Shown piece after piece: positions 30,347 through 57,299 of a stretch of DNA of 64,000 nucleotides. Position 1 is the first letter of the stretch. Every line of letters starts with the position of its first letter. Source of the DNA: Apostichopus japonicus (taxonomy: Eukaryota; Echinodermata; Holothuroidea; Aspidochirotida; Stichopodidae); the NCBI RefSeq assembly GCF_037975245.1, contig NC_092583.1, positions 7,763,264 through 7,827,263 on the forward strand, read 5' to 3'. The notes below the pieces were generated by a model, which searched no databases, was not told the origin of the DNA, and saw nothing but the letters and a program-made list of their open reading frames with translations. The translations under genes and the position numbers were made by a program.

Positions 30347-33300
30347 GAAGCGATGGCCACGTCGGTTGATGAAGAAGCCTGTGGAAGAAGCCACAAAGTT
30401 TTGTGAGCTTGGGGTAGATAAAGCTGGATTTGATGTCCGCTACATAAATGATTTCATTGGTAAGGTACACTTGTCTTTCATAAATTGCTGTATTTACTAT
30501 TCATAGCTTGTGATAAAAAACGAAAATGTTAATGAAATTTGATATTTTTCAGAGGTAACTCTGGATACAACACATTCCTAGATGTTGGAATTTTGCCCAT
30601 ATTACTAAACTTTCGTACCAACCTACAAGATGAATGATGTAATCCTAGTTACCTTTGTCAAATGCACCTGAATGAGCTGAACAAATAATATGTGACATGT
30701 GCATGAAGCAGGCCATATCATCTTGTGTAGCTACATGCACAAAACTAGTCAGCTAAACTTAGAACACAATCGACAGATTGGCATAGAGAACTAGGGGCAT
30801 AGCAGCCCGCAATACATTTATTCAAGCAGGTAAAAGTATGACTTCACAGAATTGAATGAATGGAAGTGGCTGTGTACATCAGCTCTGCATAGGTTCCATA
30901 GTTCCTGTTTCTTCCTACAAATTAATTTTCTTAGCTGTTAACACCAATTAATTGAAAAAAGCAATGGCAACTATATGAACAATATGTAGGTACTTACAAC
31001 TTAAGAAGTTTGTACCCCCCACCCCCCCCCCCCCCTCGGTGCATGCCAGTAGCCAGTATTTAAAAAGTCAAGTAACATTCAGCTTTGGTGTAACCAGCAA
31101 GCATGACTCTGATCTTACATTTTCAATCGCTTCAAGTTTGTAAAATGGCAAAACTTCAACAAGAAGTATGGTAGGAGCTGCCTAATATAGTATGTATGTG
31201 AACACTCCTCACAGATGGTATAGCAATTACAGATGTACTGGTTAATGGTTATGTAACATTACTTTCCTTCGTCACTACTTGCCTTTCGATGGTAGAGAGC
31301 TCATTGGAAAGAAATTGCTAACTCATATACTATTGTGGTCTTGAGCTTGAAGGCTTGCACAGTTCATAGAGATACTGTGTCTATACTGGTCTGTATGACA
31401 ATGCTGCTTTTGAGGATGTCCATATACATGTTTATAATTGTCACATTAACATAAAAACATATCATAGGCCTTCAGCTGCTATGATATGGTGGGCCATTGA
31501 TCATCAGTGAAGACATTTTGCATATATGCAGGTGGCATACATATAAGTGAGTGTTCCATGTAGGAAATGCAAATTTATCTATTGATCTACATTTAATTTA
31601 ATATACTGAAGTCAAGTACACCTCAGATAATATCCTATATATTGATATATGTGATATGTCATATCGTTTTTGCTTACATTGCAAATGTAGTAAATGCCCT
31701 ATACTGTAGCTTATAATGGAACACTTCAGATACCACAATCCACATAGATATAACCAAGGATTATCCCAAATTTCAGAGAAGGAACAGAAATGTAGCGAAA
31801 AAGGAATCTTTAATCATATACCACATTTTTCAGCCAGTAAATGCTCCAAAAAAAAAAAAAGCACTATGTCAGGAAGATTAATTTGCTTTCACTGCTCACA
31901 TCTATCAAAATTAGATAAGCAACATAGAGCCTGAAATAAATTACCATCATGATCTAAATAGATGCAAGTGCATTAGCAATAATTGTTTTAAAGTTAATGT
32001 TGCTGGCAAATAATGATGCACTGTCCTTTACACTTTTATATTGACAGGTTATGGTGTATTCACTTCCAGGGACTTCAGCCAGAAAGATTTTTTGCTGGAG
32101 TATCGGGGTGAACTAATTTCATCAGAAGAAGCAGTGAAGAGAGAAAAAACTTACCCACTTTCAAAGGGGAGTTTCCTTTACTTTTTTAAGGACAAAGGTG
32201 TTCTGAAATGGTGAGTTTTTACACATAAGTATCTTAGCTTAAACTAATTATTGTAAATAAATTTACAAGGGTGCAGTATCCTGCATTGAAACTTTGATAA
32301 ATATTTCATGTGGCAGCTTGAAATCATTTGAATCAGTTTCTTTGCAATTCCATAATAACTATAGCTGTTCATGACAAGTTGAATAAAGGTGCTACACTAG
32401 ATCCTGATCAGATCCACTGATGTTATTAGACGATTATCCCTGCATGTGGTAATAAAATGACTGATCCCGACATGTTCATACTTAGTTCATACTCTGATCC
32501 TCCTATACTTTACACTACTTAGTGTTGATGTGGTATGGAGCATTATGGAGGCTAGCAACTAACCTACAACTTAAAACAAACTGTTCACTATTCAGAGCTT
32601 TTGCTGTTGGGACAGCTTGTGTCGTATCACAAATGTCTATACAGTTACAAGCACCAGTATTCGAAATTCTTAATTAGTCAGGACATTGTCGATATAAAAT
32701 GGCTTGCAATTCACTAAAGGTTCCTCTATATTCACAGTCTTAAGGCTATGAAACATACATATACCATTAACTATGTAGGCCTACCAGAATATGCAGCAGG
32801 CTATGACCAGGGAGTTGTTCACTAACAACTCCCTGCTATGACAAGGAAGGCTACTTCAACACAGTCACAGTTGATCCTGAAGGGTTAACACTACACACTT
32901 GATCTTGATATCAGGATAAAATCCTGGTCTCTGCCAGCATCAAAATAGGAGGATCAGGTCCGGATCTGAACTGCATTTACACTACAGCTGTGATGTCGAT
33001 AGGCGCTGATCCTGACGTTGAGATCTAATCCGGATCTAGTGTTCAAGCACCCTGAACATTTTACTTGATTTTGCAACAAGTGACATATATATTGCAGTAC
33101 TGCACTTGATCCTCATTACCAACTGTAATGTCAAACCACGTGAATTTTGTTAGACTACAGTTCATTCCTGCATGTGCACTGACCTGTACACAGCTGCCTA
33201 ACCATTTCTATAACCCCCTTAGTTTGTGATACATCTATTCTTGGTGCTGTCAGCTGAGGAATGTTATACTAACATAAATGTCTCTTCTTACATGCCTGTT

Positions 33301-33529
33301 TTTAAACTGTCTTTCTCTTACCTTTTTATTTAGTGTGGATGCTACTGATAAGCATGGGAAAGGAAGGCTGGTCAATGATAACCACATAGCCCCAAACTGC
33401 AAAATGATCATTGTTTGCAAACTACACCAGTCCAAACCCTACCTATGTCTGTTTGCTACTAAAGACATCCCAGCTGAGACAGAACTGCGGTTTGACTATG
33501 GTGTAGCCAATCTCCCATGGCGGAGAAAG
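30347..33529 (+). CDS. KMT5A-like SET methyltransferase domain, three exons
   Basis: Exon 1 (from a CACAG acceptor at 30347, first useful ATG at 30369, to 30459) gives KKPVEEATKFCELGVDKAGF. Exon 2 (32048-32210) gives GYGVFTSRDFSQKDFLLEYR followed by GELISSEEAVKREKTY. Exon 3 (33334-33529) gives CVDATDKHGKGRLVNDNH, KDIPAETELRFDYG and LPWRRK. These are the SET hallmarks: the G-x-G-x-F AdoMet loop, the EYRGELI strand, the pseudoknot segment RLVNDNHIAPNC (where relatives have RLINHS) and the C-terminal FDYG with its conserved tyrosine. The family methylates lysine, in KMT5A histone H4 K20. The substrate here is unknown. All acceptors and donors are canonical (GTAAGG, GTGAGT, GTAAAG). Confidence 0.85.
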
Positions 33530-36500
33530 GTAAAGATGTCCTCATTGCTAATAGCTATCCTCTTTTCAAATAAAGTAAAGTAAATTCTTCTTATCTCATT
33601 AAGAGAACAAAATGTGTGGCCACATGCAGCAACTTGCAATGACACGTTGTAAATAAGTTTGTATTACTGATAATATTATGCCTGTTTTAGGTTACAGTAA
33701 TGCAAACAAATGCAGTTAATAGCTTATTTTAGCCAAGTGGAGCATCAACTAAGCCCAACCCATGCTGTTCCTTTGCACTTGTCTATCATAAAGTCTGATT
33801 ATGGAAAGGAACGTACTTATTACAATGGTCAATAAATTCAATTAATTTCTTTCAGTGCTCATAAATACTATGTATACAAACACAAGATCCCAGTGATGTT
33901 CTTTTTTCGCAAAATTTTGACTAATCCATACACTAAGAGCAAACTTAAAAATATGAAAGCCATTTCTTTTTTTCATATGATGCAGACCAAGAAAAGAGTC
34001 CAAGAGGCCCTTAGGAAATGACCAAAAGGAAACGTCTTCAGGACACTTCTTTTCCTCTTAAATTGTGAAATGTTTTCAACTCACCTGCTAGCTGTTGTTT
34101 CATTGAAGAAACAAATATATAAATAAATGGTTACAGGCATGAACAAACAAAGACTTGTACGGTTACAAGCATGAAAATTCATTATTCTAATGTTATATAT
34201 ATACATGCTTGAAACTTTGTACCTCAACGGTTACGTTGGTAAATGAGAGCCCTATATGGTTTGCAAATAATGGGAATTATTGGTTGGTTGAGGGGGAGGG
34301 GGGGGGGGGTTATCAGGACTGGTAACAAATTCACCAAGTCTACCATTAACATTTACAACACCATACTCTCAATGTGGGGAGTGTGGACATAATATTTTGT
34401 TTGGATGTAACTGGTTAAAGGAAGAATATTAATAATTCCTGACAATTTGCTTTTCAGCCACTGGAAGGAAAAGAAAATAAGACAGTACCATTGCATCACA
34501 GCCTTGATGAACTTTCTTTCTGTGGTTTTAAAAAGGTTGGTCATTACTGATATTTCTTTAGCCAAAGATAATTTTTTCCATTAATAAAGCTTATCTGCAG
34601 TGGAAGATGGTCTGAAATTAGTATAGTTAAATTTTTTGAGGTGAAGGTAATGCCAGGATTTAGAGAATGCTATTAAAGTCTGTGCCTCTACTATGATTCT
34701 TCTCCACAAACTTCAAAAGAGAAACCATTGTGTAGTGTTTCTCTGGTATATGGTTATAGTCCTCAAATAAACTGTGATATTAGAAATGTCAGCTCCACGC
34801 TTCTTTCCTTTAGTTCTCAGGAAACCTACGATAATGGAGTAAAATGTTTGTGTGATGATATGGTTAGTCCTCAGATAACCGTTTTTGAAGAAATAATTCT
34901 GGTGTTTCTCTGGTTTGGCTGTCCTCAAGAAACTGTGATTTACAGAAATTCATAATTTTCCTGTTTTTCATAATAACTTAATTTTCATAACAATTAATCC
35001 TACAGACAAAACTGTGAACAAAGAAATAGATCACTGCAGTGTCCAGAAAAAAAATTATGAATGAAAAATGTCATTGCAGTTTTCCTCTGGTATGAAGCAT
35101 TCTCAGATACAGCATGTGGCCCTGAGGAAAACTGCTCAGTAAATATGTATGATTATCATGGTTTGCCATTTTTGTGTGATGAAATGTATTTAAAAGAAAC
35201 ACTATTTACCAGTCTATGTATCTGTGGTAATGTTGTCCTCAGGAAAATTGAAAGAGAAAATACATTATATCCATGTTTCTCTGAGAAGGTTATCCTCAGA
35301 CCAGTTGCTGTGCATGAGCTGCGTTGTTACAGAGCTTCTGTGATGTGGTAGACCTCAGGAAACTATTTGTTAGCAGAAATACCCCATTACAGAACTCTGC
35401 TGATTTGGTAGTACTCAGGAAAACTGCTATGGAGAAAAACTATATGCCATTGTACTGTGATATAACTGTGATATAAGAAAAAATATCATGGAAATTCTTG
35501 TGTGCTCACTGCTGATATATAGTCATCCAGTTTACTTGATTTAAAGAAAACACTTTGTGCAATATTTTCCTGACATGGTGGTCCTCAAGAAAACTGTGAT
35601 ATCAGAAAAGGTCATGAAAACACCAATTTCTTTAGTGAGAATTATTTGTATCATCCTGTATCAATCTTTATGGGACCTTTACTATTGCATTAATGTCTAT
35701 CTGACTGTTTCAACATCATTAATGTCTCTAAGAAATGTTTTAGTAAACTTATTATTATGAACTTATGTATAAACCCCCTTCATATAAAATAGGAATGCAA
35801 CTACATTGATTTTGCTGTTCTGTTACAGTTGATTTCTGAACCCCAACCTGACGAAGTCACTAGTAATTCTGGAGAGCAGTCTGAAGTGGTACGTATAAGC
35901 CATTACATAATAATTTAGCCATGCAGTTTTATCATAGTTCAAAAGAGCTTTAAATCAACTAAGTGAACAAAGGAAACTCTCCATCAAGTGATATACATTC
36001 GGGAAATCAAAATGGTTCAACATTGGTTGCCAAGTGTTTCACGAATGAATAAGTTTTTTTTATATGACTAATTTGATGAAATTATTGGTATTTTCTTGTC
36101 AAAAGTAGGTGTTATAAAGCCTTCCTTAGTAATGGTTTTGGAATTGTGCTGTCCAGGCCTACACATGATGAAAAAACATCTTCCTTATTAACATAATATA
36201 CCAACACACAAACCAGTATTGTCTCCACAAGGCAAGGCATGTGTATTAAATCACAAGTCATCATATTTGTAGCAATGTTCATCCCTTCAGCAGCATCGTC
36301 AGTGAGTGTTCAGGAAACAATTCTAATGCATTCCTAGTGTCAGCTTGACCCAATGAGTCAAAATATGTATTGTCTCTGATGATAAAATGCCAATAGTGCT
36401 ACACACACTTGTTCCCTATGGAGACAATATAGACACTGTATACAGTATTCACAAGGAATACACTTGTACATATCTACAAATGATTGACCAATTGGGGAAC

Positions 36501-39500
36501 ACAATAATGCCTCAAGTATTAGTGTTAATTGGAGGTTTGCTATTGTTCTAAAGTCTACTTTAATGTTTTACCTGTATTCATGTTTCTTGGAAAATTTCCA
36601 GCAATTGATAAACTGTATCGGAATCTTTAAAACCCCCTTCACATCAAAGTGGAATTCAACTACATTGATTTTGCTGTTCTGTTACAGTTGATTTCTGAAC
36701 CCCAACCTGACGAAGTGACTAGTAATTCTGGAGAGCAGTCTGAAGTGGTACGTATAAGCCATTACATAATAATTTATCCATGCAGTTTTATCATAGCTCA
36801 AAAGAGCTTTAAATCAACTAAGTGAACAAAGGAAACTCTCCATCAAGTGATATACATTCGGGAAATCAAAATGGTTCAACATTGGTTGCCAAGTGTTTCA
36901 CGAATGAATAAGTTTTTTTTATACGACTAAATTGATGAAATTATTGGTATTTTCTTGTCAAAAGTAGGTGTTATTAAGCCTTTCTTAGTAATGGTTTTGG
37001 AATTGTGCTGTCCAGGCCTACACATGATGAAAAAACATCTTCCTTATTAACATAATATACCAACACACAAACCAGTATTGTCTCCACAAGGCAAGGCATG
37101 TGTATTAAATCACAAGTCATCATATTTGTAGCAATGTTCATCCCTTCAGCAGCATCGTCAGTGAGTGTTCAGGAAACAATTCTAATGCATTTCTAGTGTC
37201 AGCTTGACCCAATGAGTCAAAATATGTATTGTCTCTGATGATAAAATGCCAATAGTGCTACACACACTTGTTCCCTATGGAGACAATATAGACACTGTAT
37301 ACAGTATTCACAAGGAATACACTTGTACATATCTAAAAATGATGACCAATTGGGGAACACAATAAAACCTCATATATTAGTGTTAATTGGAGGTTTGCTA
37401 TTGTTCTAAAGTCTACTTTAATGTTTTACCTGTATTCATGTTTCTTAGAAAATTTCCAGTAATTGATAAACTGTACCGGAATCTTTAAAACCCCTTTCAC
37501 ATGAAAGTGGAATTCAACTACATTGATTTTGCTGTTCTGTTACAGTTGATTTCTGAACACCAACCTGACGAAGTGACTAGTAATTCTGGAGAGCAGTCTG
37601 AAATGGTAGGTATAAGCCATTACATAATAATTTAGCCATGCAGTTTTATCATAGTTCAAAAGAGCTTTAAATCAACTAAGTGAACAAAGGAAACTCTCCA
37701 TCAAGTGATATACTTTCGGGAAATCAAAATGGTTCAACATTGGTTGCCAAGTGTTTCACGAATGAATAAGTTTTTTTTATATAACTAAATTGATGAAATT
37801 ATTGGTATTTTCTTGTCAAAAGTAGGTGTTATTAAGCCTTTCTTAGTTATGGTTTTGGAATTGTGCTTTCCAGGCCTACGCATGATGAAAAAACATCTTC
37901 CTTATTAACATAATATACCAACACACAAACCAGTGTTGTCTCCACAAGGCAAGGCATGTGTATTAAATCGCAAGTCATCATATTTGTAGCAATGTTCATC
38001 CCTTCAGCAGCATCGTCAGTGAGTGTTCAGGAAACAATTCTGATGCATTTCTAGTGTCAGCTTGACCCAATGAGTCAAAATATGTATTGTCTCTGATGAT
38101 AAAATGCCAATAGTGCTACACACACTTGTTCCCTATGGAGACAATATAGACACTGTATACAGTATTCACAAGGAATACACTTGTACATATCTACAAATGA
38201 TGACCAATTGGGGATCACAATAATGCCTCAAGTATTAGTGTTAATTGGAGGTTTGCTATTGTTCTAAAGTCTACTTAAATGTTTCACCTGTATTCATGTT
38301 TCTTAGAAAATTTCCAGTAATTGATAAACTGTACCGGAATCTTTAAAACCCCCTTCACATAAAAGAGGAATGCAACTACATTGATTTTGCTGTTCTGTTA
38401 CAGTTGATTTCTGAACCCCAACCTGACGAAGTCACTAGTAATTCTGGAGAGCAGTCTGAAGTGGTACGTATAAGCCATTACATAATAATTTAGCCATGCA
38501 GTTTTATCATAGTTCAAAAGAGCTTTAAATCAACTAAGTGAACAAAGGAAACTCTCCATCAAGTGATATACATTAGGGAAATCAAAATGGTTCAACATTG
38601 GTTGCCAAGTGTTTCACAAATGAATAAGTTTTTTTTATATGACTATATTGATGAAATTATTGGTATTTTCTTGTCAAAAGTAGGTGTTACTTAGCCTTTC
38701 TTAGTAATGGTTTTGGAATTGTGCTGTCCAGGCCTACACATGATGAAAAAACATCTTCCCTATTAACATAATATACCAACACACAAACCAGTATTGTCTC
38801 CACAAGGCAAGACATGTGTATTAAATCTCAAGTCATCATATTTGTAGCAATGTTCATCCCTTCAGCAGCATCGTCAGTGAGTGTTCAGGAAACAATTCTA
38901 ATGCATTCCTAGTGTCAGCTTGACCCAATGAGTCAAAATATGTATTGTCTCTGATGATAAAATGCCAATAGTGCTACACACACTTGTTCCCTATGGAGAC
39001 AATATAGACACTGTATACAGTATTCACAAGGAATACACTTGTAAATATCTACAAATGATGACCAATTGGGGATCACAATAATGCCTCAAGTATTAGTGTT
39101 AATTGGAGGTTTGCTATTGTTCTAAAGTCTGCTTTAATGTTTCACCTGTATTCATGTTTCTTAGAAAATTTCCAGTAATTGATAAACTGTACCGGAATCT
39201 TTAAAACCCCTTTCACATGAAAGTGGAATTCAACTACATTGATTTTGCTGGTCTGTTACAGTTGATTTCTGAACCCCAACCTGACGAAGTGACTAGTAAT
39301 TCTGGAGAGCAGTCTGAAATGGTAGGTATAAGCCATTACATAATAATTTAGCCATGCAGTTTTATCATAGTTCAAAAGAGCTTTAAATCAACTAAGTGAA
39401 CAAAGGAAGCTCTCCATCAAGTGATATACATTCGGGAAATCAAAATGGTTCAACATTGGTTGCCAAGTGTTTCACGAATGAATAAGTTTTTTTTATATGA

Positions 39501-42500
39501 CTAAATTGATGAAATTATTGGTATTTTCTTGTCAAAAGTAGGTGTTATTAAGCCTTTCTTAGTAATGGTTTTGGAATTGTGCTGTCCAGGCCTACACATG
39601 ATGAAAAAACATCTTCCTTATTAACATAATATACCAACACACAAACCAGTATTGTCTCCACAAGGCAAGGCATGTGTATTAAATCACAAGTCATCATATT
39701 TGTAGCAATGTTCATCCCTTCAGCAGCATCGTCAGTGAGTGTTCAGGAAACAATTCTGATGCATTCCTAGTGTCAGCTTGACCCAATGAGTCAAAATATG
39801 TATTGTCTCTGATGATAAAATGCCAATAGTGCTACACACACTTGTTCCCTATGGAGACAATATAGACACTGTATACAATATTCACAAGGAATACACTTGT
39901 ACATATCTAAAAATGATGACCAATTGGGGAACACAATAAAACCTCAAATATTAGTGTTAATTGGAGGTTTGCTATTGTTCTAAAGTCTACTTTAATGTGT
40001 CACCTGTATTCATGTTTCTTAGAAAATTTCCAGTATGTGATAAACTGTACCGGAATCTTTAAAACCCCTTTCACATGAAAGTGGAATTCAACTACATTGA
40101 TTTTGCTGTTCTGTTACAGTTGATTTCTGAACCCCAACCTGACGAAGTCACTAGTAATTCTGGAGAGCAGTCTGAAATGGTAGGTATAAGCCATTACATA
40201 ATAATTTAGCCATGCAGTTTTATCATAGTTCAAAAGAGCTTTAAATCAACTAAGTGAACAAAGGAAACTCTCCATCAAGTGATATACATTCGGGAAATCA
40301 AAATGGTTCAACATTGGTTGCCAAGTGTTTCACGAATGAATAAGTTTTTTTTTATATAACTAAATTGATGAAATTATTGGTATTTTCTTGTCAAAAGTAG
40401 GTGTTATTAAGCCTTTCTTAGTTATGGTTTAGGAATTGTGCTTTCCAGGCCTACGCATGATGAAAAAACATCTTCCTTATTAACATAATATACCAACACA
40501 CAAACCAGTGTTGTCTCCACAAGGCAAGGCATGTGTATTAAATCGCAAGTCATCATATTTGTAGCAATGTTCATCCCTTCAGCAGCATCGTCAGTGAGTG
40601 TTCAGGAAACAATTCTGATGCATTTCTAGTGTCAGCTTGACCCAATGAGTCAAAGTATGTATTGTCTCTGATGATAAAATGCCAATAGTGCTACACACAC
40701 TTGTTCCCTATGGAGACAATATAGACACTGTATACAGTATTCACAAGGAATACACTTGTACATATCTACAAATGATGACCAATTGGGGATCACAATAATG
40801 CCTCAAGTATTAGTGTTAATTGGAGGTTTGCTATTGTTCTAAAGTCTACTTAAATGTTTCACCTGTATTCATGTTTCTTAGAAAATTTCCAGTAATTGAT
40901 AAACTGTACCGGAATCTTTAAAACCCCCTTCACATAAAAGAGGAATGCAACTACATTGATTTTGCTGTTCTGTTACAGTTGATTTCTGAACCCCAACCTG
41001 ACGAAGTGACTAGTAATTCTGGAGAGCAGTCTGAAATGGTAGGTATAAGCCATTACATAATAATTTAGCCATGCAGTTTTATCATAGTTCAAAAGAGCTT
41101 TAAATCAACGAAGTGAACAAAGGAAACTCTCCATCAAGTGATATACATTCGGGAAATCAAAATGGTTCAACATTGGTTGCCAAGTGTTTCACGAATGAAT
41201 AAGTTTTTTTTTATATAACTAAATTGATGAAATTATTGGTATTTTCTTGTCAAAAGTAGGTGTTATTAAGCCTTTCTTAGTTATGGTTTAGGAATTGTGC
41301 TTTCCAGGCCTACGCATGATGAAAAAACATCTTCCTTATTAACATAATATACCAACACACAAACCAGTGTTGTCTCCACAAGGCAAGGCATGTGTATTAA
41401 ATCTCAAGTCATCATATTTGTAGCAATGTTCATCCCTTCAGCAGCATCGTCAGTGAGTGTTCAGGAAACAATTCTGATGCATTTCTAGTGTCAGCTTGAC
41501 CCAATGAGTCAAAGTATGTATTGTCTCTGATGATAAAATGCCAATAGTGCTACACACACTTGTTCCCTATGGAGACAATATAGACACTGTATACAGTATT
41601 CACAAGGAATACACTTGTACATATCTACAAATGATGACCAATTGGGGATCACAATAATGCCTCAAGTATTAGTGTTAATTGGAGGTTTGCTATTGTTCTA
41701 AAGTCTACTTAAATGTTTCACCTGTATTCATGTTTCTTAGAAAATTTCCAGTAATTGATAAACTGTACCGGAATCTTTAAAACCCCCTTCACATAAAAGA
41801 GGAATGCAACTACATTGATTTTGCTGTTCTGTTACAGTTGATTTCTGAACCCCAACCTGACGAAGTGACTAGTAATTCTGGAGAGCAGTCTGAAGTGGTA
41901 TGTATAAGCCATTACATAATAATTTAGCCATGCAGTTTTATCATAGTTCAAAAGAGCTTTAAATCAACTAAGTGAACAAAGGAAACTCTCCATCAAGTGA
42001 TACACATTCGGGAAATCAAAATGGTTCAACATTGGTTGCCAAGTGTTTCACGAATGAATAAGTTTTTTTTATATGACTATATTGATGAAATTATTGGTAT
42101 TTTCTTGTCAAAAGTAGGTGTTATAAAGCCTTTCTTAGTAATGGTTTTGGAATTGTGCTGTCCAGGCCTACACATGATGAAAAAACATCTTCCTTATTAA
42201 CATAATATATCAACACACAAACCAGTGTTGTCTCCACAAGGCAAGGCATGTGTATTAAATCGCAAGTCATCATATTTGTAGCAATGTTCATCCCTTCAGC
42301 AGCATCGTCAGTGAGTGTTCAGGAAACAATTCTGATGCATTTCTAGTGTCAGCTTGACCCAATGAGTCAAAGTATGTATTGTCTCTGATGATAAAATGCC
42401 AATAGTGCTACACACACTTGTTCCCTATGGAGACAATATAGACACTGTATACAGTATTCACAAGGAATACACTTGTACATATCTACAAATGATGACCAAT

Positions 42501-45500
42501 TGGGGATCACAATAATGCCTCAAGTATTAGTGTTAATTGGAGGTTTGCTATTGTTCTAAAGTCTACTTAAATGTTTCACCTGTATTCATGTTTCTTAGAA
42601 AATTTCCAGTAATTGATAAACTGTACCGGAATCTTTAAAACCCCCTTCACATAAAAGAGGAATGCAACTACATTGATTTTGCTGTTCTGTTACAGTTGAT
42701 TTCTGAACCCCAACCTGACGAAGTGACTAGTAATTCTGGAGAGCAGTCTGAAGTGGTATGTATAAGCCATTACATAATAATTTAGCCATGCAGTTTTATC
42801 ATAGTTCAAAAGAGCTTTAAATCAACTAAGTGAACAAAGGAAACTCTCCATCAAGTGATACACATTCGGGAAATCAAAATGGTTCAACATTGGTTGCCAA
42901 GTGTTTCACGAATGAATAAGTTTTTTTTATATGACTATATTGATGAAATTATTGGTATTTTCTTGTCAAAAGTAGGTGTTATAAAGCCTTTCTTAGTAAT
43001 GGTTTTGGAATTGTGCTGTCCAGGCCTACACATGATGAAAAAACATCTTCCCTATTAACATAATATATCAACACACAAACCAGTGTTGTCTCCACAAGGC
43101 AAGACATGTGTATAAATCACAAGTCACCATATTTGTAGCAATGTTCATCCCTTCAGCAGCATCGTCAGTGAGTGTTCAGGAAACAATTCTAATGCATTCC
43201 TAGTGTCAGCTTGACCCAATGAGTCAAAATATGTATTGTCTCTGATGATAAAATGCCAATAGTGCTACACACTTGTTCCTTATGGAGACAATATAGACAC
43301 TGTACACAGTATTCACAAGGAATACACTTGTATATCTCAAAATGATGACCAATTGGGGATCACAATAATGCCTCAAGTATTAGGTTTAATTGGAGGTTTG
43401 CTATTGTTCTAAAGTCTCCTTTAATGTTTCACCTGTATTCATGTTTCTTAGAAAATTTCCAGTAATTGATAAACTGTACCGGAATCTTTAAAACCCCTTT
43501 CACATGAAAGTGGAATTCAACTACATTGATTTTGCTGTTCTGTTTCAGTTGATTTCTGAACCCCAACCTGACGAAGTGACTAGTAATTCTGGAGAGCAGT
43601 CTGAAATGGTACGTATAAGCCATTACATAATAATTTAGCCATGCAGTTTTATCATAGTTCAAAAGAGCTTTAAATCAACTAAGTGAACAAAGGAAGCTCT
43701 CCATCAAGTGATATACATTCGGGAAATCAAAATGGTTCAACATTGGTTGCCAAGTGTTTCACGAATGAATAAGTTTTTTTTATATGACTAAATTGATGAA
43801 ATTATTGGTATTTTCTTGTCAAAAGTAAGTGTTATTAAGCCTTTCTTAGTAATGGTTTTGGAATTGTGCTGTCCAGGCCTACACATGATGAAAAAACATC
43901 TTCCTTATTAACATAATATACCAACACACAAACCAGTATTGTCTCCACAAGGCAAGGCATGTGTATTAAATCACAAGTCATCATATTTGTAGCAATGTTC
44001 CTCCCTTCAGCAGCATCGTCAGTGAGTGTTCAGGAAACAATTCTAATGCATTCCTAGTGTCAGCTTGACCCAATGAGTCAAAATATGTATTGTCTCTGAT
44101 GATAAAATGCCAATAGTGCTACACACACTTGTTCCCTATGGAGACAATATAGACACTGTATACAGTATTCACAAGGAATACACTTGTACATATCTACAAA
44201 TGATGACCAATTGGGGATCACAATAATGCCTCAAGTATTAGTGTTAATTGGAGGTTTGCTATTGTTCTAAAGTCTACTTTAATGTGTCACCTGTATTCAT
44301 GTTTCTTAGAAAATTTCCAGTAATTGATAAACTGTACCGGAATCTTTAAAACCCCTTTCACATGAAAGTGGAATTCAACTACATTGATTTTGCTGTTCTG
44401 TTACAGTTGATTTCTGAACCCCAACCTGACGAAGTGACTAGTAATTCTGGAGAGCAGTCTGAAATGGTAGGTATAAGCCATTACATAATAATTTAGCCAT
44501 GCAGTTTTATCATAGTTCAAAAGAGCTTTAAATCAACGAAGTGAACAAAGGAAACTCTCCATCAAGTGATATACATTCGGGAAATCAAAATGGTTCAACA
44601 TTGGTTGCCAAGTGTTTCACGAATGAATAAGTTTTTTTTTATAAAACTAAATTGATGAAATTATTGGTATTTTCTTGTCAAAAGTAGGTGTTATTAAGCC
44701 TTTCTTAGTTATGGTTTTGGAATTGTGCTTTCCAGGCCTACGCATGATGAAAAAACATCTTCCTTATTAACATAATATACCAACACACAAACCAGTGTTG
44801 TCTCCACAAGGCAAGGCATGTGTATTAAATCGCAAGTCATCATATTTGTAGCAATGTTCATCCCTTCAGCAGCATCGTCAGTGAGTGTTCAGGAAACAAT
44901 TCTGATGCATTTCTAGGGTCAGCTTGACCCAATGAGTCAAAATATGTATTGTCTCTGATGATAAAATGCCAATAGTGCTACACACACTTGTTCCCTATGG
45001 AGACAATATAGACACTGTATACAGTATTCACAAGGAATACACTTGTACATATCTACAAATGATGACCAATTGGGGATCACAATAATGCCTCAAGTATTAG
45101 TGTTAATTGGAGGTTTGCTATTGTTCTAAAGTCTACTTAAATGTGTCACCTGTATTCATGTTTCTTAGAAAATTTCCAGTAATTGATAAACTGTACCGGA
45201 ATCTTTAAAACCCCTTTCACATGAAAGTGGAATTCAACTACATTGATTTTGCTGTTCTGTTACAGTTGATTTCTGAACCCCAACCTGACAAAGTGACTAG
45301 TAATTCTGGAGAGCAGTCTGAAGTGGTACGTATAAGCCATTACATAATAATTTAGCCATGCAGTTTTATCATAGTTCAAAAGAGCTTTAAATCAACTAAG
45401 TGAACAAAGGAAACTCTCCATCAAGTGATACACATTCGGGAAATCAAAATGGTTCAACATTGGTTGCCAAGTGTTTCACGAATGAATAAGTTTTTTTTAT

Positions 45501-48500
45501 ATGACTATATTGATGAAATTATTGGTATTTTCTTGTCAAAAGTAGGTGTTATAAAGCCTTTCTTAGTAATGGTTTTGGAATTGTGCTGTCCAGGCCTACA
45601 CATGATGAAAAAACATCTTCCCTATTAACATAATATATCAACACACAAACCAGTGTTGTCTCCACAAGGCAAGACATGTGTATAAATCACAAGTCACCAT
45701 ATTTGTAGCAATGTTCATCCCTTCAGCAGCATCGTCAGTGAGTGTTCAGGAAACAATTCTAATGCATTCCTAGTGTCAGCTTGACCCAATGAGTCAAAAT
45801 ATGTATTGTCTCTGATGATAAAATGCCAATAGTGCTACACACTTGTTCCTTATGGAGACAATATAGACACTGTACACAGTATTCACAAGGAATACACTTG
45901 TATATCTAAAAATGATGACCAATTGGGGATCACAATAATGCCTCAAGTATTAGGTTTAATTGGAGGTTTGCTATTGTTCTAAAGTCTCCTTTAATGTTTC
46001 ACCTGTATTCATGTTTCTTAGAAAATTTCCAGTAATTGATAAACTGTACCGGAATCTTTAAAACCCCTTTCACATGAAAGTGGAATTCAACTACATTGAT
46101 TTTGCTGGTCTGTTACAGTTGATTTCTGAACCCCAACCTGACGAAGTGACTAGTAATTCTGGAGAGCAGTCTGAAATGGTAGGTATAAGCCATTACATAA
46201 TAATTTAGCCATGCAGTTTTATCATAGTTCAAAAGAGCTTTAAATCAACTAAGTGAACAAAGGAAACTCTCCATCAAGTGATATACATTCGGGAAATCAA
46301 AATGGTTCAACATTGGTTGCCAAGTGTTTCACAAATGAATAAGTTTTTTTTATATGACTAAATTGATGAAATTATTGGTATTTTCTTGTCAAAAGTAGGT
46401 GTTACTAAGCCTTTCTTAGTAATGGTTTTGGAATTGTGCTGTCCAGGCCTACACATGATGAAAAAACATCTTCCCTATTAACATAATATACCAACACACA
46501 AACCAGTATTGTCTCCACAAGGCAAGACATGTGTATTAAATCACAAGTCATCATATTTGTAGCAATGTTCATCCCTTCAGCAGCATCGTCAGTGAGTGTT
46601 CAGGAAACAATTCTAATGCATTCCTAGTGTCAGCTTGACCCAATGAGTCAAAATATGTATTGTCTCTGATGATAAAATGCCAATAGTGCTACACACACTT
46701 GTTCCCTATGAAGACAATATAGACACTGTATACAGTATTCACAAGGAATACACTTGTACATATCTACAAATGATGACCAATTGGGGATCACAATAATGCC
46801 TCAAGTATTAGTGTTAATTGGAGGTTTGCTATTGTTCTAAAGTCTACTTTAATGTTTCACCTGTATTCATGTTTCTTAGAAAATTTCCAGTAATTGATAA
46901 ACTGTGCCGGAATCTTTAAAACCCCCTTCACATAAAAGAGGAATGCAACTACATTGATTTTGCTGTTCTGTTACAGTTGATTTCTGAACCCCAACCTGAC
47001 GAAGTGACTAGTAATTCTGGAGAGCAGTCTGAAGTGGTATGTATAAGCCATTACATAATAATTTAGCCATGCAGTTTTATCATAGTTCAAAAGAGCTTTA
47101 AATCAACTAAGTGAGCAAAGGAAACTCTCCATCAAGTGATAAGTTTAGTGAAATCAATATGGTTCAACATGTACGTGTGTTTCTTAGAACAGTATCAGTA
47201 AACTTATTGCCTGTACCACAGTGTTTAATAACCCCTTAGTAATTTGTTTTGATTACCTGGATGAATTCATTGGTATATTCTTGTCAAAATCAAGTGTTCA
47301 TAAGGCTTTGCACATAATGATTTAGCCATGCATGTTTAAACACAAGTCTAAAAATGAACTTTCAATCTACTAAATGAACAAAGATAACTCTCCATTAAGA
47401 GATTAGTTTATCTACAATATTATAAAACTTACTGGTTTATATATTTACGAGTGACCCACTTACCTGTCTCCCCACAACCTATGCACCGCAGTCTACCGTG
47501 TCTAGAATGCCCTGGTAATCTTTTAACAAGTGGGGAACGAAGTAAATCTAGAATTAGTATGTATTAAAATCATCACATAATGATTCTAGCTTATCATTTT
47601 GCGGGGTATGTTAGCTGATGAAGGCATTTGAGTATCAACATCTTGAAACGGAACAACAAATGGTTAATGTACACTGATAGACATTTCCTGTTTTAGGTGA
47701 TAGTGCTGTGCACTTGCTGTTTACACATGTACCGTTTAGGGACAACACTTCCATCTCCCCAACAATTGCAACAAAATGACTTTTTTACACCTAGATATCC
47801 TCCCCAAAAAACAATTGGGAATTAACTGTTACAACATTTTGTTCCCTATGAAGACACCATAGAAACTTGTGACATTACTGCAGGGCAGCTAAATGTGTGT
47901 AATTTTGTTGATGTATTTTGAATGATCACTGTTCATTACCATTATTTTGTTGACTCCTTATGTTGTCACATTAGTATTGTATATGCCAGCAAGACTCCTA
48001 TTAAATGAGGGGCTTAAAAATCCCTCTGCTTTATCTAGTGTAAGTTGGTGGTACAAATAAATCTGTATCAAATGATGCAGCACCATATTGTTTGTAAGCT
48101 AAACATTTCAGCTTCATATCTACTATTATACTTTCAGATTATTCTGAAGCCTGAAGTAATGGCAGCTATTGAACAGATGATGGAGCAAGGGGGTATTGTG
48201 GAAAACAGTGATGATGACGATACCGCAACCAATAATCGCTTCGATAACTTGAATAACTTGAAGAGTGAAAGCAAAGGAATTTACATCAGCACTTACCAGA
48301 AAAAGAAAAAAAGAACTTACAACAAACAAAACGCCTGTGTCTTCTGTGGTTGTCTTGTGCAAGTTCTTATTGGTAGACACCTATTAGCAGTACACAAAGA
48401 TGAGCCTGATGTTGCTGCAATACATGTCCTAAATGATCAAGCAGAGAGGAAAAGAAGGCTTGACCTCCTTCGCAACAGAGGCAACTTCCTTCACAATCAA

Positions 48501-51500
48501 CAAGTAATTGATGCTGGTGTTGGGCAAATCATCTTAATGAGGCGGCCTCACACATTCCATGATCTGGATTATGAAGACTATGGACCATGCCCTCTGTGCC
48601 TTTGATATGTGCTTTTAAAAGACATCTGGAGGCACACTCACTACCGTTGCATTGCAAGGGACAGTGGTCAAGCACAAGGTGGGAGTGGAAAAGGGGAATT
48701 ACAAATTCAGTCACAAATCCTTGCAAACAACAAAAAGATGTCCGGTGCAAGCGAGGAACTGAAGAGGCATGTATTAGCAAAGATGCGGAGTAGCAACATA
48801 TCCAGAATTGCAAAAAGTGATGGTGCCATATTAGAATTGGGTAATGTTTGGTTAAAGAAAGTTGGAGGACAAAGGAAATCGATTGTCTCAAGTAAGATGT
48901 TATCATCATCAAGGATGGTGGATGAACTTCGCAAGCTTTGTCCAAATGAGGGTGAATTTATTAGTGATTTTCTGAAGCCAAAATGTTTTGATGCCATACT
49001 GGAAGCTGCCAACAACCTTGGTGGACAGGATATTACAGAAACAGGTAATTCCTCATACGAAAAGCCTTCAACAGTACTCAAGCTGGGCCATGATATGAAA
49101 AAACTTGCCACCATCAAGATGTGCAGGGCACTGAGAACAGGTGATCAAAACTTGGAGAAGGAGGCTAAAGACTACCTATTCTTGCATGAGAAAGAGTGGG
49201 GTGTAAAGATGTCTTGCACAGCACTGACGACACTGAGAGAAAGAAAGTTTAACAAAGGTCAAAATCTCCCCCAGACTTCAGATCTAGTGAAGCTTACAGA
49301 GCATGTGTCACAACAGTTGAAGCTGGCCATGGAAGAAATTGTGGAGAACGTGTCCAATCAAATCTATAAGAGGCTGCAAAAGTTGTGTCTGGTGCGGTTG
49401 CTTCTTTTCAATAAGCGTCGACCAGGTGAGTTGTCACAACTAACCATAAAAGCGTACAAAGAGCGACCAAACTGGGCAGATGCTGGAATTCAGGAAGTGA
49501 AGGACAGCTTTACCTCACTTGAGCAAAAGCTTTTGACTGCCATGGACTTGGTGTATATTCGGGGGAAACGGGGAACCCCAGTCCCAGTTATCATTCCAGA
49601 AGATTGCCAGCAGGTTTTCCAACAGCTAATCAAACTGCGAAGCAAAGTATCAATCGCCCATGAGAACTCATTTTTATTTGCTGCCATGGGAACATCATTG
49701 TCATTTATTCGTGCAAACGACTGTTTATCAGAAATTGTCAAGGACGTTGATCTGGCTGAGCCTGAGAAGATCAAATCTACCAACATGCGAAAGTACTTGG
49801 CAACTGTCTCCCAAGTACTCGCTTTGAAGAAAAATGAACTTGACTGGTTAGCGAGACATCTCGGACATGATGTCCAAGTTCATCGTCAGTACTACAGGCT
49901 CCATGAATCTGCCTTAGAACTAACCAAAGTCGCAAAGCTGCTTATGCTCACTGAGAAGGGAAAGGTGGGCAGATGGACTGGAAAGAGTTTAACTGAGCTT
50001 ACTCTAGAAGGTAAACATGCCTTAATATTCAAATGCTTTGTCTTTTTGACATTAACTGTAGAAGTGTTAGTACATTTCACAATGTTGGTACTTGATAGCA
50101 GTTAAGTCTTAAAAGCTAAATGTCTACAAATTTGCAGCTAATGTAAATTATGGAGGGGGGGGGGGGGTTATATTAAAGACTCTGAGATACTTTTCTATTT
50201 TCTCATGTTTGCTCCAAGTGTTGGAAAACCTCACCAAACACTGAAGTATAAACCAGAAAATAATGTTATTAAATACCTACTGCAGTATTGGTCAAAGTTC
50301 GATACAAAACTATGTTTCACTCAGCCTTCTTTTATGTTGTCAGGAGTGCTTGTTTACACTCTGTAGAATTAAGTTACAAAACTTTCAGCAATTCTCTTAA
50401 ACAAATCAGCTTTCATAGCAGAATTAATTGATAACCCATTCATCTTGCAGATTTTCCAGAGGAACAATTGCTTGACCTTGAAGATAATGAAGATGAGGAG
50501 ACAATATGCAATGGTATAAATTTTCCTACTATTACATATTCAAATCATGTTGCTAATGCCTGATTCAGATATAATTTGTTTGTTCGCAATGCAATACTTT
50601 CATAATTCTACTGTAGTATACAAGATTGACACCCAAGAATGAATTTAGGTGCCAACCCTTCAATCCTGTGAGAGGTATTATTTTTCACATTGAGGTTCTC
50701 AATAAAATGAGCTATTAATGATCATAGCATAAAATTAAGTACATGAAAAGAAAAAAAAATGTAGCTGATATGAGGTGGTCATGTGCAGACAACATTTAGT
50801 GCTATTGGTGGAATAACAATTTCTCATGAATTGAATTGATGATGGGACACATGAATTCAGTTCACATTTTAAGACAAAGTGTACCTAAGTCATCAGCCAC
50901 ACTGCACACATATCATGTGCTGGCACGTTTTTCCTGTGACAGCCTTCCTTGACTTTACAGCATGCAAAGCCTACAATTAAAACTAATTAAGAATAAATAA
51001 TTAAGCATTAATGGCAAGAAACCTTTGCAATTTTCACATTTACTGTAGGTGAAGTTGATGAAGAAAATAGAAGTAAGCCAAGTTCTTCCAAGAGAGTAGC
51101 TGATGAAGACATCAGTGCTTCTTCATGTAAGTGTAATATTCATATCACTGGTTAGCATACTTTTAACTGGCTTGTCACAACACTGGGGCTCAACAGAAAG
51201 TGAAAGACAGAAACACTTAGAGCTACAAAAAGAGGGATGTCTTTGTGTTTAGGCATATTGTTTATGGATAGGAACAACAGAAGGGTCATGATGACAAATG
51301 ATCAGGAATGTTTTATTGCCTTTGATTGCATGGCTGCTGAAGACTTTGGCAAAGCAAAAGGTGTAGCCACTAACATATTATAAAATCCAATTAAGGAACA
51401 AAAGAATGGACTTTCTCAAAACGTGTAGCAGACTTGTGAACTGCTAGCAATAATCACCATATCAGTACTATTCAGAGAGCAGCGCAGAAGAGTACCCTTG

Positions 51501-52680: not shown

Positions 52681-52881
52681 ACTCAAAAACCGTGGGGGGG
52701 GGGGTGGGAAGGGATCGCACCCATTATTCCTCCCTGGCCACATCTGCTACTGTGTTACTTAATTGGGTACACTGTATAACCATACAGTGCCTAGAGTATA
52801 CTAGTGGAGCCCTAATGTAACAGGAGCCACCCTATCTTCGTTGTATTTTTCAAAATGTAATATTTTTATTTGTTTTCCTTA

Positions 52882-53153
52882 TAGTGGGGCGGTTTAGCCC
52901 AAATATTCAAAAGGATTGTGCATTTTGTGATACAAGCACCAAATTTGGCACACATGTATATTAACATGTTGCGAACATATTCAGATATTGGGCCACTCGG
53001 AATTCTCTCGTTATGTCCGCCATATTGGATTTCAAAATGGCCGCCATTTGAAATCTACATTTGCGATTATCTCTGGGTCAAATGCTGCTATTGACTTCAT
53101 TTTGGTGTCTAAATGTATGTTTTTTGGGGGGCAAGGAATCCAATGGTACCAAT
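52882..53153. repeat. Left terminal inverted repeat of the 4.3-kb transposon
   Basis: It matches the reverse complement of about 56922-57183 with only modest divergence, for example ATTGTGCATTTTGTGATACA, ATATTGGGCCACT and GGCAAGGAATCCAATGGTA. The outer 30 bp are less similar than the rest. It contains CGCCATATTGG and AAATGGCCGCCATTT words resembling YY1 sites. Confidence 0.8.
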
Positions 53154-53190
53154 TTCACAATCCAATGCACAATCCATGCACAATTCTTAG

Positions 53191-53242
53191 GTAGGCTGAG
53201 GGGGCTGCAGCCTGGTAAGAGGCTGCAGCCCCCTCAGCCTAC
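53191..53242. repeat. Perfect 22-bp-arm hairpin just inside the left TIR
   Basis: The arms contain GGCTGAGGGGGCTGCAGCC and its exact inverse, with an 8-base loop TGGTAAGA. It lies between the left TIR and the 3' end of the coding remnant, so it may be a subterminal structure of the transposon. Confidence 0.85.
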
Positions 53243-53352
53243 TTGGCATCTGAGGCTAGGTATATATCGGTACTGAAGATACGTGTACATAAACAGTGTC
53301 ATGTTAACAAGTTCAGCACTGCCACAAGTACATGTATGTTGTGGACTCATCG

Positions 53353-56300
53353 TCATGTGCAGTCCCGTTCACACACACAGAGGGCTGTGCACTCATGGGC
53401 AGCCTTCTTGCATTTGCAGCGCCTCACACACCATTTCTGGCACTTGCAAGAAACCAGCTCAATGCAGCTGTGAGCTGCCTCAGGTAGTCTGGTCCAGTAT
53501 GGTGTGTAGTGTCCTCCAGTCATTGACCAACCCCAGTTGGTTGGTGGAGGGAGCTCTGGTGCTGGCAGCAGTATCTGACCCCACACATGTCCACCTTGAT
53601 ACACTGCCCTCTTGACATGTTCCTCTAAAGCTGCCTTCGTTGGAGGGATCAGCTGCACATCGTTCTTCCTTGCGAAGAGTTTCCTCCTGGCCGTGTCAAT
53701 GCTTGCTTGTCCTCCTGGTCAAACCATTCCATGAGAGCTGCTGAGAGGAACCTGAACAACTCGGTCTTGTTGCTGTCCACTCGTAGGAAGTTCTGCCAGT
53801 TTCCTGATATGGCTTCGTTGGCCACCACACGTCTCCGCACGCCTTGTCCCCGCTTTGCACGTGTACTACCTTTCAGTGAATCAGCAAGGTAAGTATCCCA
53901 GACCAGATCCAGGCGTGACACTGTTTGCAGCTTCGTAGATATATATGGGATGAAGATCTGATGTGCATACTCTTCAAAGGTCTTTAATGCAGCCGGCTTC
54001 AGCATCTGGACGATGGTTGCTCCATCAAACACTATACAGGTAGTGACAGGAGTCTCTGTCTTGGCGTTGGAGACTTCTTCCAAGCATGTGATGAGATCAT
54101 TCTTGGTACCAGTGAAGAGGTTTCCACCAGCAGACAGTGCAGGAGGACATGCCTGGTTCTCGTGACGAAAGAACTCCTTAAGGTTTCCATCCCTTGGCAG
54201 CTAATGTACAGGCGTGCGAAGAGTTCACGATCATTCTTGACGGAGGCGAGCTGTTGCTGACCTTTGCTCTGGTTTCTTGGAGTGGAAGTGCTGAACACCT
54301 TCAGCTTGTTACGACGAATGGGGTCGTCCAATGCCTTTGTTCTGTCCAACAGACACTCTCTGGTGGAAGCCTCGAACTGCTCTTAGCCAATCCTCTTGGC
54401 ATTCATCACGGTCTCCATGGCTGCAGGACCTGCGATGTCCTTTGTGTCCAGTGTGACTAGATCCTGACTGTTCTCCTCAAATGGGTTGCCCATCTCCTCT
54501 ATGACACCAACGAGAGAGCGAATATCTTTCACAAATGAGGCCTGTACACTTGGCGTCTGATCATGATGACGTGTGTCTGCTGTTTGCGTCTCCAGTATTG
54601 GTTCCCGTCATGGAATTCTTCGATCACCCTAGCAACTTCTGGTCCCGCAACCATCCAGCGACGAAGGGCTCTAGGGTTGTCAGTGAGCCCAACTGCGCCA
54701 CCGTCTCCTTTGATGCAGGCATTATTCTGCTCATGTGCCTGGTCAATCGGGATTGAAGAGAACACCCTCTGTGTTTCTGAACTGTGAAATGGCCTTCACT
54801 GAATTTTGGCTACGTCCCGGTGTTTGGTAGTGAGTTAGGCCATGTCCTTCAGGTGCACTGGTATCCACCTAGCATAGTGGGTATGATCTAGTGCGTGGAA
54901 CCAGGTGACCAGCTCTGTCAGAGCATCGAGGTACATCATCAACGATCCCTGCCTGAGAGAACGCACATACACTAGAACCAACAGTTCTAGTTCCAGCACA
55001 GTTGCCCAATAGCGAAACTGGGGGATGTTGTCTCGTCTCTGGCGACACCAGTCTTCAAACGCAGGAAGGTCCTCTGCATCCCTGGTTTCTCCCAGACAGT
55101 AGTGGTTGTAGGCATGGTGTTGCAGGATGTACAGTGCTGCTGCAGTCACTTGATGTGCTCTTCTTGTGCGCAAGACATGAGATGCTCGCAGGAATGAGTC
55201 TGCTGTCCCTGCTGTCGCAATCTCGGCTTGCACAAGTGCTTGCACCCAACCACTCCCTTGCAGCCAGTCCCCCAGTGTTTTCAGTGCCGCCATCTCTATA
55301 TGGAGACCACCAAACATCACCACTATGTGGTCTTCACCATAACTCTCTTGCCACTTCCACTGTATCTGCTTTCCAAAGCAAACAGTGGCTGCTCCAAGGT
55401 GACCACTGGTGTCCAGAATTCAGGTGTTCTACAGCTTTCTTCACAACGTCCATTGAATGCCGGATCATGGCCACAGTGTGGGCACTTTCCAGGAAGAGTG
55501 GAAGCAGCGACGTGGGGCAGATGACTCTAGCATCTGGTGGCTGTCGGCTGGCATGAAATGCAGCCCAAGATTTGTTTTCATTGTCCACTGTACCAGTGTT
55601 GTCTTCCAGGACTTGTTTTGCATTGCCTAGCCATTGGTATTCTTCATCAGTCTGCTGTTTGAAGCCTCCCTCTGGCCAATGACACAACTCCAGCAGCTGG
55701 GACAGGCGACTTCTTGATGCTGCGAGTGACAGGGGGTACATCAGTATAATAGTGCGGCAAAGGGGCGACAGTCTTGGACCGTGCATCCCCAGATTCTCCA
55801 GCAACGACGATGCTCCGATTTATTCCTTCACCAGTGCAAGAAGGATGTTGTAGGAGGGAGATAGCGGTACCATGGAAGGAGTCTTTTGATGTTGTTGCAC
55901 TAGGGTTGTGATCTATGTTGTCTACAGTGGCAGTTGTGAACACTTCGCCACGCATTTTCGGAGGGCAGACCACTTGTTCTCTGTGAAACTGTTGGCAGAC
56001 ATTGTTGCCCATCTGTGCTGAGAGCTGGAGCACTCTATCATTACAGATGCTCAGGCCAAGGTGTGACAGTCTGTCGACCAATTCCTTCTTGCATGTATGA
56101 GCATGCAACATCATCCCGATGTATGTTGGAAGTGGGGTCTCTTGTGCAACACTGTGCCTGACACAGGTGGATGATGTGGTGCAACGTGTTCGCTTGTGTT
56201 TTACGCTGTTGAACTTCAGTACCTGGCCTGCGGTAATTGCTGCAGGGTTAGTGTCTGCCATCTGGTCCTTGATGCTGGGTCCCTCTAGGATCATGCTGAC

Positions 56301-56630
56301 TAGGGCAAGCAGCAACGGTGGCACATCTTGACATCCTCCAGGGAATCCTGTGAAGGGCTTGGCTTCTCCAAACATGTGACGGCGAACAATGTGTGCAGCA
56401 CGGGCAAAATGGACTGCATCACTATCACTGTCCAGCTCGCAGGCTTTGTCAAGAGCAGCACCGATATCTTCTTCAAATGCCATCAGGATGTCTCTCCCCT
56501 TGGTGTGTGCCCTCATGTCAGGAAACTGAGATAGCAGTCTCTGTTTCAGTCGTGTGGAGTGGAGTCTTGTGTCGAACTGCACTCCAAGCTGTTCCATTCT
56601 GGACTGATAGAGGTGGACAAGATCGGCCAA
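53353..56630 (-). pseudogene. Coding remnant of the 4.3-kb transposon
   Basis: From N to C terminus the minus strand shows a conserved block with VDNIDHNPSATTSKDSFHG (about 55,900), FGGLHIEMAALKTLG (about 55,310), IDQAHEQNNACIKGDGGAVG (about 54,730), CIVFDGATIVQMLKP through VWDTYLADSLKG (about 53,900-54,040), NWQNFLRVDSNKTELF (about 53,790) and a cysteine-rich end (YTPYWTRLPEA then many C-x-C, about 53,360-53,510). I know this block order from many uncharacterised invertebrate proteins. The IVFDG...YLADSLKG part has the look of a PIN/FEN-like nuclease core, but the acidic stretch expected after NWQNFL is missing here. The frame is broken in several places. Function in transposition is inferred. 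Confidence 0.65.
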
Positions 56631-56921
56631 TCTGAATACTGTTGCCGTCTCCTCATCTTGTCTGGTTTTTCCTGCACTAACCCCCCCCCCCCCTAAAAAA
56701 AACCATCAAATGAAAGCTTATTCTGTCCTCTTTCAAACAAGCTATTTTCCAGGTCTGGGGGTTGTTCGGTGTAGGATTTGGGATTTTTTGAAAATCACCG
56801 GAAACCGGAACGCAAATCTTGCGCGCTTAACAGGTGAGGGGAGATCGAGAAGCGCCCATGTAATGTAAAGCAGCCATTTTGAAATCCAATATGGCGGCCC
56901 ATTGGTAAAAATACGCAATGC

Positions 56922-57183
56922 AGATTGTTACCATTGGATTCCTTGCCCCAAAAAACATACATTTAGACACCAAAATGAAGTCAATAGCAGCATTTGACTC
57001 AGAGATAATCGCAAATGTAGATTTCAAATGGCGGCCATTTTGAAATCCAATATGGCGGACATAAAGAGAGAATTCTCAGTGGCCCAATATCTAAAAATGT
57101 TAGCAATATGTTAATGTTCATGTGTGCAAAATTTGGTGCTTGTATCACAAAATGCACAATAGGTTTGCTATGCTGCTACACTA
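56922..57183. repeat. Right terminal inverted repeat of the 4.3-kb transposon
   Basis: Inverted partner of the left repeat, carrying the same AAATGGCGGCC and AATATGGCGG words. A 66-residue frame across it is just the repeat read through. Confidence 0.8.
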
Positions 57184-57299
57184 TTAGGATGTAATGTCTA
57201 TGTAAGTATTTTTGTAATCACTTCTTTGGTGAATTTTGCGTTTTGGCGAGTAGATGCTTAGTAATGATTGCCAAATAGCGAGTACATTTAAAAACATTT

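Follow-up and report, generated by a model that had tools for sequence, protein, structure and literature searches.

Coding exon variable number tandem repeats (VNTRs) are, to our knowledge, known one gene at a time. The exons of Dscam arrays are diverse and one of them is chosen, and the micro-exons of schistosomes mostly differ from each other. Published accounts describe tandem exon arrays within one gene for Dscam-type genes (PMC1397879) and very small symmetrical exons, with alternative splicing possible, for schistosome micro-exon genes (PMC4350168). In human LPA, according to PMC11462820, the kringle IV type 2 (KIV-2) VNTR repeats a multi-kilobase exon-plus-intron unit in tandem, from 1 to ~40 copies, and accounts for up to 70% of the protein; two exons encode the kringle domain, and the copies differ between people. 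Here we describe tandem arrays of short exons in Apostichopus japonicus, beginning with one in a stretch of 64,000 nucleotides (the window; contig C23:7763264-7827263), where the array lies in a gene between a SET part and a downstream region that we call recombinase-like. The genome searched contains 671,581,487 bases in 35 contigs.

Judged by their sequence, these arrays belong with the coding exon VNTRs typified by LPA KIV-2, as a variant built on small symmetric exons like those of schistosome micro-exon genes. They resemble KIV-2 in that tandem exon-plus-intron units lie inside one gene (exon status here being assigned from splice sites and frame) and in that exon lengths of 60, 108, 45 and 51 nt, all multiples of 3, keep the reading frame. 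Unlike KIV-2, each unit holds one short exon whose peptide is probably disordered, and the members of a dispersed gene family carry several distinct arrays. Small symmetric exons are shared with the schistosome genes, whereas the copies here are tandem and near-identical, in a gene with a SET domain. They also differ from Dscam arrays: the 14 copies in the window vary at 4 of 60 sites and are thus near-identical, and, being in phase 0, all of them could be included. Titles and abstract openings in the open-licence literature yielded no gene joining SET and tyrosine recombinase parts with exon arrays.

A tandem exon array in the window and its paralogues

The 14-copy exon array in the window is real. 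A 60-nt exon recurs 14 times on the + strand between 35829 and 47036, at spacings of 853-859 bp (mostly 858), and a scan of the - strand of the window, tolerating 22 mismatches in 60, found zero copies. Among lags of 800-919 tested over positions 35001-48000, self-match exceeded 0.4 only at 858 (0.571) and 859 (0.466). All 14 exons have AG directly before them and GT directly after, and stay open in frame 0, which bears out the claim of an earlier note on this DNA that each tandem unit holds one symmetric exon, and few changes from the peptide LISEPQPDEVTSNSGEQSEV occur among them. The array reported in that note is present with its bounds shifted, the last exon ending at 47036 and unit homology covering ~35771-47170. 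By our reading of the gene model, which covers phase in the window's gene only, the flanking exons (34458-34535 and 48138 onward) meet the array in phase 0, so any array copy could be skipped without loss of frame. An RNA gene in the 858-bp unit was considered and rejected, as a scan of 29000-53000 at Rfam gathering thresholds returned 0 matches.

A 105-nt query located 36 places, all scored as exon candidates, at three loci: 14 copies on C23, 12 on C12 and 10 on C1. The AG, GT and open frame were verified in 36/36 of them. Copy number had been expected to vary between individuals; the variation seen here is between loci of one genome (14/12/10) rather than between individuals. C23 and C12 are 98.4-99.6% alike over three long matching blocks, with array units in two of them, and the longer blocks of C1 reach ~90-97.5%. 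The interval from SET to recombinase-like exons differs between C23 and C12 by 1721 bp, or 2.0 units.

Averaged over pairs sharing at least 600 columns, unit identity is 97.3% within C23, 97.4% within C12 and 97.4% between these two; it is 95.7% within C1 and ~94% when C1 units are compared with those of the other two loci. A tree built from 32 full units, with four partial units left out, groups all 8 full C1 units in one clade (100/100), whereas the C23 and C12 units are intermixed. C1 units alternate in a two-unit pattern (identity 94.2% at lag 1, 97.6% at lag 2), identity in C12 peaks at lag 3 (98.3%), and in C23 it does so only weakly (97.7%). In our reading, this block pattern reflects unequal exchange in which several units move together, acting locus by locus and also in the C1 copy, which is a pseudogene. 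Such locus-specific block duplications agree with the proposal that the array is young and is being homogenised. Tandem repeats are prone to false expansion, and the array might be a shorter one that was so expanded in assembly. We find this hardly credible: units within C23 differ by up to 5% and show block patterns, interval length on different chromosomes can be predicted from copy number (below), and the assembly is likely the one of PMC10344927, made from HiFi data with reads of mean length 14.7 kb, against an array of ~11.4 kb.

Recurrent exon arrays in a dispersed gene family

The 155-residue piece that follows the array matched at least 81 places in the genome and SET exon 3 at least 121. 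Checked against 73 of the 121 SET matches, 59 of the 81 post-array matches have a SET exon no more than 40 kb upstream in the same orientation. Groups of equal score on several chromosomes suggest a recent spread of this family. Three probes were drawn from the SET-to-recombinase intervals of three other intron-bearing subfamilies, the contents of which were not known beforehand, and 3/3 landed inside tandem repeats. At L077 (C16), two units were read, ~1063 bp apart, with one 108-nt exon each; at L078 (C9), five units of ~490 bp were read, with one 45-nt exon each; and at L079 (C13), one 51-nt exon was read, the upstream intron repeating at spacings of 937 and 1327 bp. All 8 exons read at these loci have AG, GT and an open frame. 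SET-side and recombinase-side flanks of 1.5 kb had no repeats in common in six locus pairs (two mismatched and uninformative, four true), so the probes were drawn from the interval itself.

Copies were then counted by exon sequence, with pattern scans that used 32-33 nt of each exon and allowed up to 3 mismatches. The 108-nt exon has 53 copies, 50 of them in nine genes (1, 3, 4, 4, 7, 7, 8, 8, 8) and three elsewhere; the 45-nt exon has 69 in five genes (10, 11, 14, 17, 17); and the 51-nt exon has 47 in six genes (1, 8, 8, 10, 10, 10), the single-copy gene having a SET exon and lacking a listed recombinase-type exon. Reversed-pattern control scans for the three exons gave 0 matches each time. 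Together with the 36 exons of the window's kind, which were fully read, the 166 recognised by pattern within genes bring the four subfamilies to 202 array exons, spread over 23 genes. All four exon lengths are multiples of 3 and all four exons are open in frame 0, for which we estimate a rough joint chance of 2e-5, the exons having first been picked by eye. By composition, three of the four array peptides are acidic and that of the 108-nt exon is not. The array layout is the same in two genes of the 51-nt subfamily that are separated by 199,200 bp on C16 (31.82-31.85 Mb and 32.02-32.05 Mb).

Copy number sets the length of the interval in two of the three subfamilies tested. Interval length rises by 1057 bp per copy across the nine 108-nt genes (r 0.996) and by 498 bp across the five 45-nt genes (r 0.9999). 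A further, intronless subfamily has linkers of 939, 1158, 1377 (four genes) and 1596 nt, a ladder with rungs exactly 219 nt apart that comes from acidic 73-residue repeats inside one open reading frame (ORF); an eighth, broken copy (899) is left out of this series. Recurrent expansion of the SET-to-recombinase linker is well supported.

We consider it probable, with real reservations, that the arrays are coding exon VNTRs situated in the linker of proteins that join SET and recombinase-like parts and come from a dispersed, multi-copy family, in which the same linker has been lengthened repeatedly. The repeat unit would be one symmetric phase-0 exon plus flanking intron. Unequal exchange between units, as the block pattern suggests, would alter copy number and homogenise the units at each locus. 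Judging from the frame, each copy would put a further 20 residues, acidic and probably disordered, between the SET enzyme and the cysteine-rich/recombinase-like part. At the DNA level, the linker is seen to have grown from different units in four intron-bearing subfamilies at least, and within a single ORF in the intronless one. The most likely reason for the recurrence is tolerance of linker length, filtered by phase-0 symmetry, and an advantage from changes in linker length is possible. Selection for varying reach between the SET head and a DNA-binding tail would be a rival reading; it draws on the recurrence across five subfamilies and on the wide spread of copy number among closely related genes. 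Such adaptive tuning seems to us very unlikely, given that the exon sequence carries no clear selection signal, that one subfamily has a constant interval (below), and that a disordered linker merely tolerating insertions predicts recurrence too. It also seems quite unlikely that, in a self-spreading family, the exon arrays serve as a fast length dial, with unequal exchange of exon-plus-intron units repeatedly resetting the reach from a chromatin-modifying head to a DNA-binding tail, giving sister copies 1-17 exons, and with the spread aiding function or escape from control in some copies.

The four units may have been amplified separately or may descend from one ancestral array homogenised in each lineage by concerted evolution; both are possible. 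Gene position and phase are common to the four subfamilies, as a single old array would have it, and peptide likeness is weak and confined to two of six pairs, the 60- and 45-nt exons (17 of 2000 shuffles as high) and the 45- and 51-nt exons (32 of 2000). The other four of the six comparisons gave 119, 1135, 1371 and 1660 of 2000, and the DNA of the units shows no detectable likeness (best E value 0.18). We hold the single array to be a serious contender but the less probable history. Common origin by DNA, tried as a candidate, found no support. Taken together, the four different units at one position in 23 genes form a natural replicate experiment on the origin, homogenisation and frame keeping of intragenic exon arrays, with the dead C1 copy as its control. 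Should linker length matter, the arrays would offer a quick evolutionary route to tuning a fusion enzyme.

Findings that weigh on a coding linker

The findings gathered in this section, except where stated, count against the coding VNTR reading of this family. The probed subfamilies were picked because their interval length had been seen to vary. The 51-nt subfamily has an interval that does not track copy number (r 0.39, five genes), and in three of its arrays the run of copies is interrupted by a hole of 7.8-7.9 kb. Genes of one subfamily, on C7, C4 and C15, keep a constant interval of 3277-3278 bp in 3/3 cases, and three single copies of the 108-nt exon (C1:12163689, C7:13265988 and C17:24828835) have no listed SET exon near them. 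Exon scoring, with generic splice weights, did place the symmetric open exon (60, 108, 45 or 51 nt) at the top of the + strand in 4/4 stretches. Shuffled sequences matched the splice scores in 59, 13, 21 and 66 of 200 cases, and the best minus-strand candidate came close for the 858-bp unit and scored higher for L079.

Every one of the three genes with the 858-bp unit breaks somewhere in the gene model. The recombinase-like exon of the window copy ends after 155 codons at an in-frame TGA (48603-48605), a position at which the C12 copy is open (688-codon frame). In the C12 copy, modelled exon 1 contains an 8-nt insertion. SET exon 2 of the C1 copy is broken by a stop and a frameshift, and the 36 kb read at that locus yielded no recombinase-type exon. 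With the in-frame TGA, the window copy can join its SET part and linker only to the first part of the module, and the idea that this linker connects to a whole recombinase-like module is not supported for it. A length-tunable spacer, as the earlier note had it, is weakened for the window gene and strengthened for the family by three further exon arrays and the ladder of lengths within an ORF.

The exon sequences give little indication that the array peptide is under selection. The 36 exons carry 9 changes at 8 sites, of which 8 are nonsynonymous, 1 is synonymous and 0 are stops, where 70%, 25% and 4% would be expected with no selection. Variable sites number 8 of 60 in the exon versus 156 of 772 in the intron (Fisher p 0.24). 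Mean pairwise diversity is lower in exon than in intron at each of the three loci (0.020/0.027, 0.019/0.026 and 0.019/0.046), with the greatest gap in the C1 pseudogene, and intron windows (69 in number, 60 columns wide) are as low as the exon in 27, 29 and 17 of 69 per locus and in 12 of 69 with all loci pooled. The statement that introns are as similar as exons thus holds approximately, since exon means, though lower at the three loci, are within the range of intron windows. The dead C1 paralogue retains 10/10 array exons intact. Since most exon changes are nonsynonymous, exon diversity falls within the intron range and the pseudogene's exons are intact, intactness points to youth and homogenisation and not to constraint; we see no clear purifying selection on the array peptide. 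Intact exons, which had been taken as a sign of function, were rejected as proof of it, as the C1 pseudogene keeps them all and the changes look near neutral.

These counts fit young intronic satellites with a usually skipped exon, the SET protein ending at 33986-34021 or skipping the array. The variable-site comparison, the ratio of 8 nonsynonymous changes to 1 synonymous, and the array kept by the C1 pseudogene all speak for satellites, as does the alternative last exon at 33986-34021, which is identical across the C23, C12 and C1 loci and, if used, could possibly yield a SET-only product. Satellites would not lead us to expect four different arrays that all place an open, symmetric exon of phase 0 at one point of the gene, nor a related subfamily that varies its linker within a single ORF by exact multiples of 3; exon diversity also has the lower mean at all three loci. 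On balance we think satellites unlikely, and retain the coding VNTR as the favoured reading.

The recombinase label is not confirmed by library, profile or fold test. In a six-row alignment, R17, K66, R140, H166, Y174 and Y175 are invariant in 6/6 rows, an R, K, R, H, Y order that may correspond to that of the catalytic residues of tyrosine recombinases. No recombinase match was found in Pfam (9 members searched), in PHROGs (9 members) or in a PDB profile search. An hhalign comparison with five phage integrases gave a probability of 0.3% over 34 columns, and a single-sequence AlphaFold model of the region was too poor to use (predicted local distance difference test score, pLDDT, 36.8). The family resembles Crypton transposons in its multi-copy dispersal in an animal genome and in the putative residue order, and differs from them in having no library, PDB or profile match for the recombinase-like region. 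Cryptons, which encode a tyrosine recombinase, are known from echinoderm hosts according to PMC3212892, in whose text on Cryptons 'SET domain' and 'methyltransferase' each have 0 occurrences.

The gene around the array and a large common-ended unit

Features of the window gene are collected in Table 1. As a joined peptide, SET exons 2 and 3 have SETD8/KMT5A as their top PDB match (E 1.8e-16), and by profile and PDB match these proteins are the nearest solved relatives of the SET part. Unlike them, the window gene adds a linker array and a recombinase-like part. The post-array exon has no Pfam match between 48138 and the TGA, and after the TGA there is a single sub-threshold match, to CelTOS (E 0.051).

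Table 1. Positions in the window of the array exons and of the parts of the gene that surround them
Feature	Position	Strand	Basis or remark
Modelled exon 1, SET part	30347..30459	+	splice sites by eye
SET exon 2	32048..32210	+	Pfam PF00856, E 6.4e-05
SET exon 3	33334..33529	+	PF00856, E 3.2e-07
Possible alternative last exon (TKKRVQEALRK, then TGA)	33986..34021	+	between SET exons and array
Exon 4 (PLEGKENKTVPLHHSLDELSFCGFKK), phase 0-0, precedes array	34458..34535	+	present in all three loci
Tandem array	35771..47170	+	~13.3 units of ~858 bp, self-match and homology; ~11.4 kb
Array exon 1/14 (LISEPQPDEVTSNSGEQSEV)	35829..35888	+	exon scan
Array exon 2/14	36688..36747	+	exon scan
Array exon 3/14	37546..37605	+	exon scan
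Array exon 4/14	38404..38463	+	exon scan
Array exon 5/14	39262..39321	+	exon scan
Array exon 6/14	40120..40179	+	exon scan
Array exon 7/14	40979..41038	+	exon scan
Array exon 8/14	41838..41897	+	exon scan
Array exon 9/14	42696..42755	+	exon scan
Array exon 10/14	43549..43608	+	exon scan
Array exon 11/14	44407..44466	+	exon scan
Array exon 12/14	45266..45325	+	exon scan
Array exon 13/14	46119..46178	+	exon scan
Array exon 14/14	46977..47036	+	exon scan
Degenerate exon-less unit pieces (77-82%) adjoining array	47260..47403	+	
Post-array exon: cysteine/histidine-rich stretch, then recombinase-like region	48138..50010	+	3' end by eye
In-frame TGA	48603..48605	+	breaks recombinase-like exon of window copy

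The gene is contained in a unit of 23-36 kb that is present in three copies, at window positions 25787-61442, C12:11486194-11515833 and C1:14817698-14840684, with common ends at CA repeats. Queries made from the ends of this unit each match these three places only, and the C12 and C1 copies share additional left flank beyond it. The dispersed near-identical genes and the common-ended unit suggest that the family may be mobile and the unit a large mobile one; given the additional left flank, the unit may instead have arisen by segmental duplication. To the right of the unit at C12 and C1 (L012, L015), a CA repeat is followed by a hairpin (TTCCTT.TGC...GCAAGGAA), the flanks being otherwise different.

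Further features lie in the window. At 52881-57184, a 4.3-kb insertion is present on C23 only (absent from C12 and C1), with inverted ends and an apparent 3-bp target duplication, TTA; its ORFs are on the minus strand and include one with a cysteine-rich stretch, CKCK...CTALCVC, and three ORFs tried against Pfam had no match. Positions 58320-58982 and 59761-60294 are tandem duplications of 332 and 265 bp, with two copies each.

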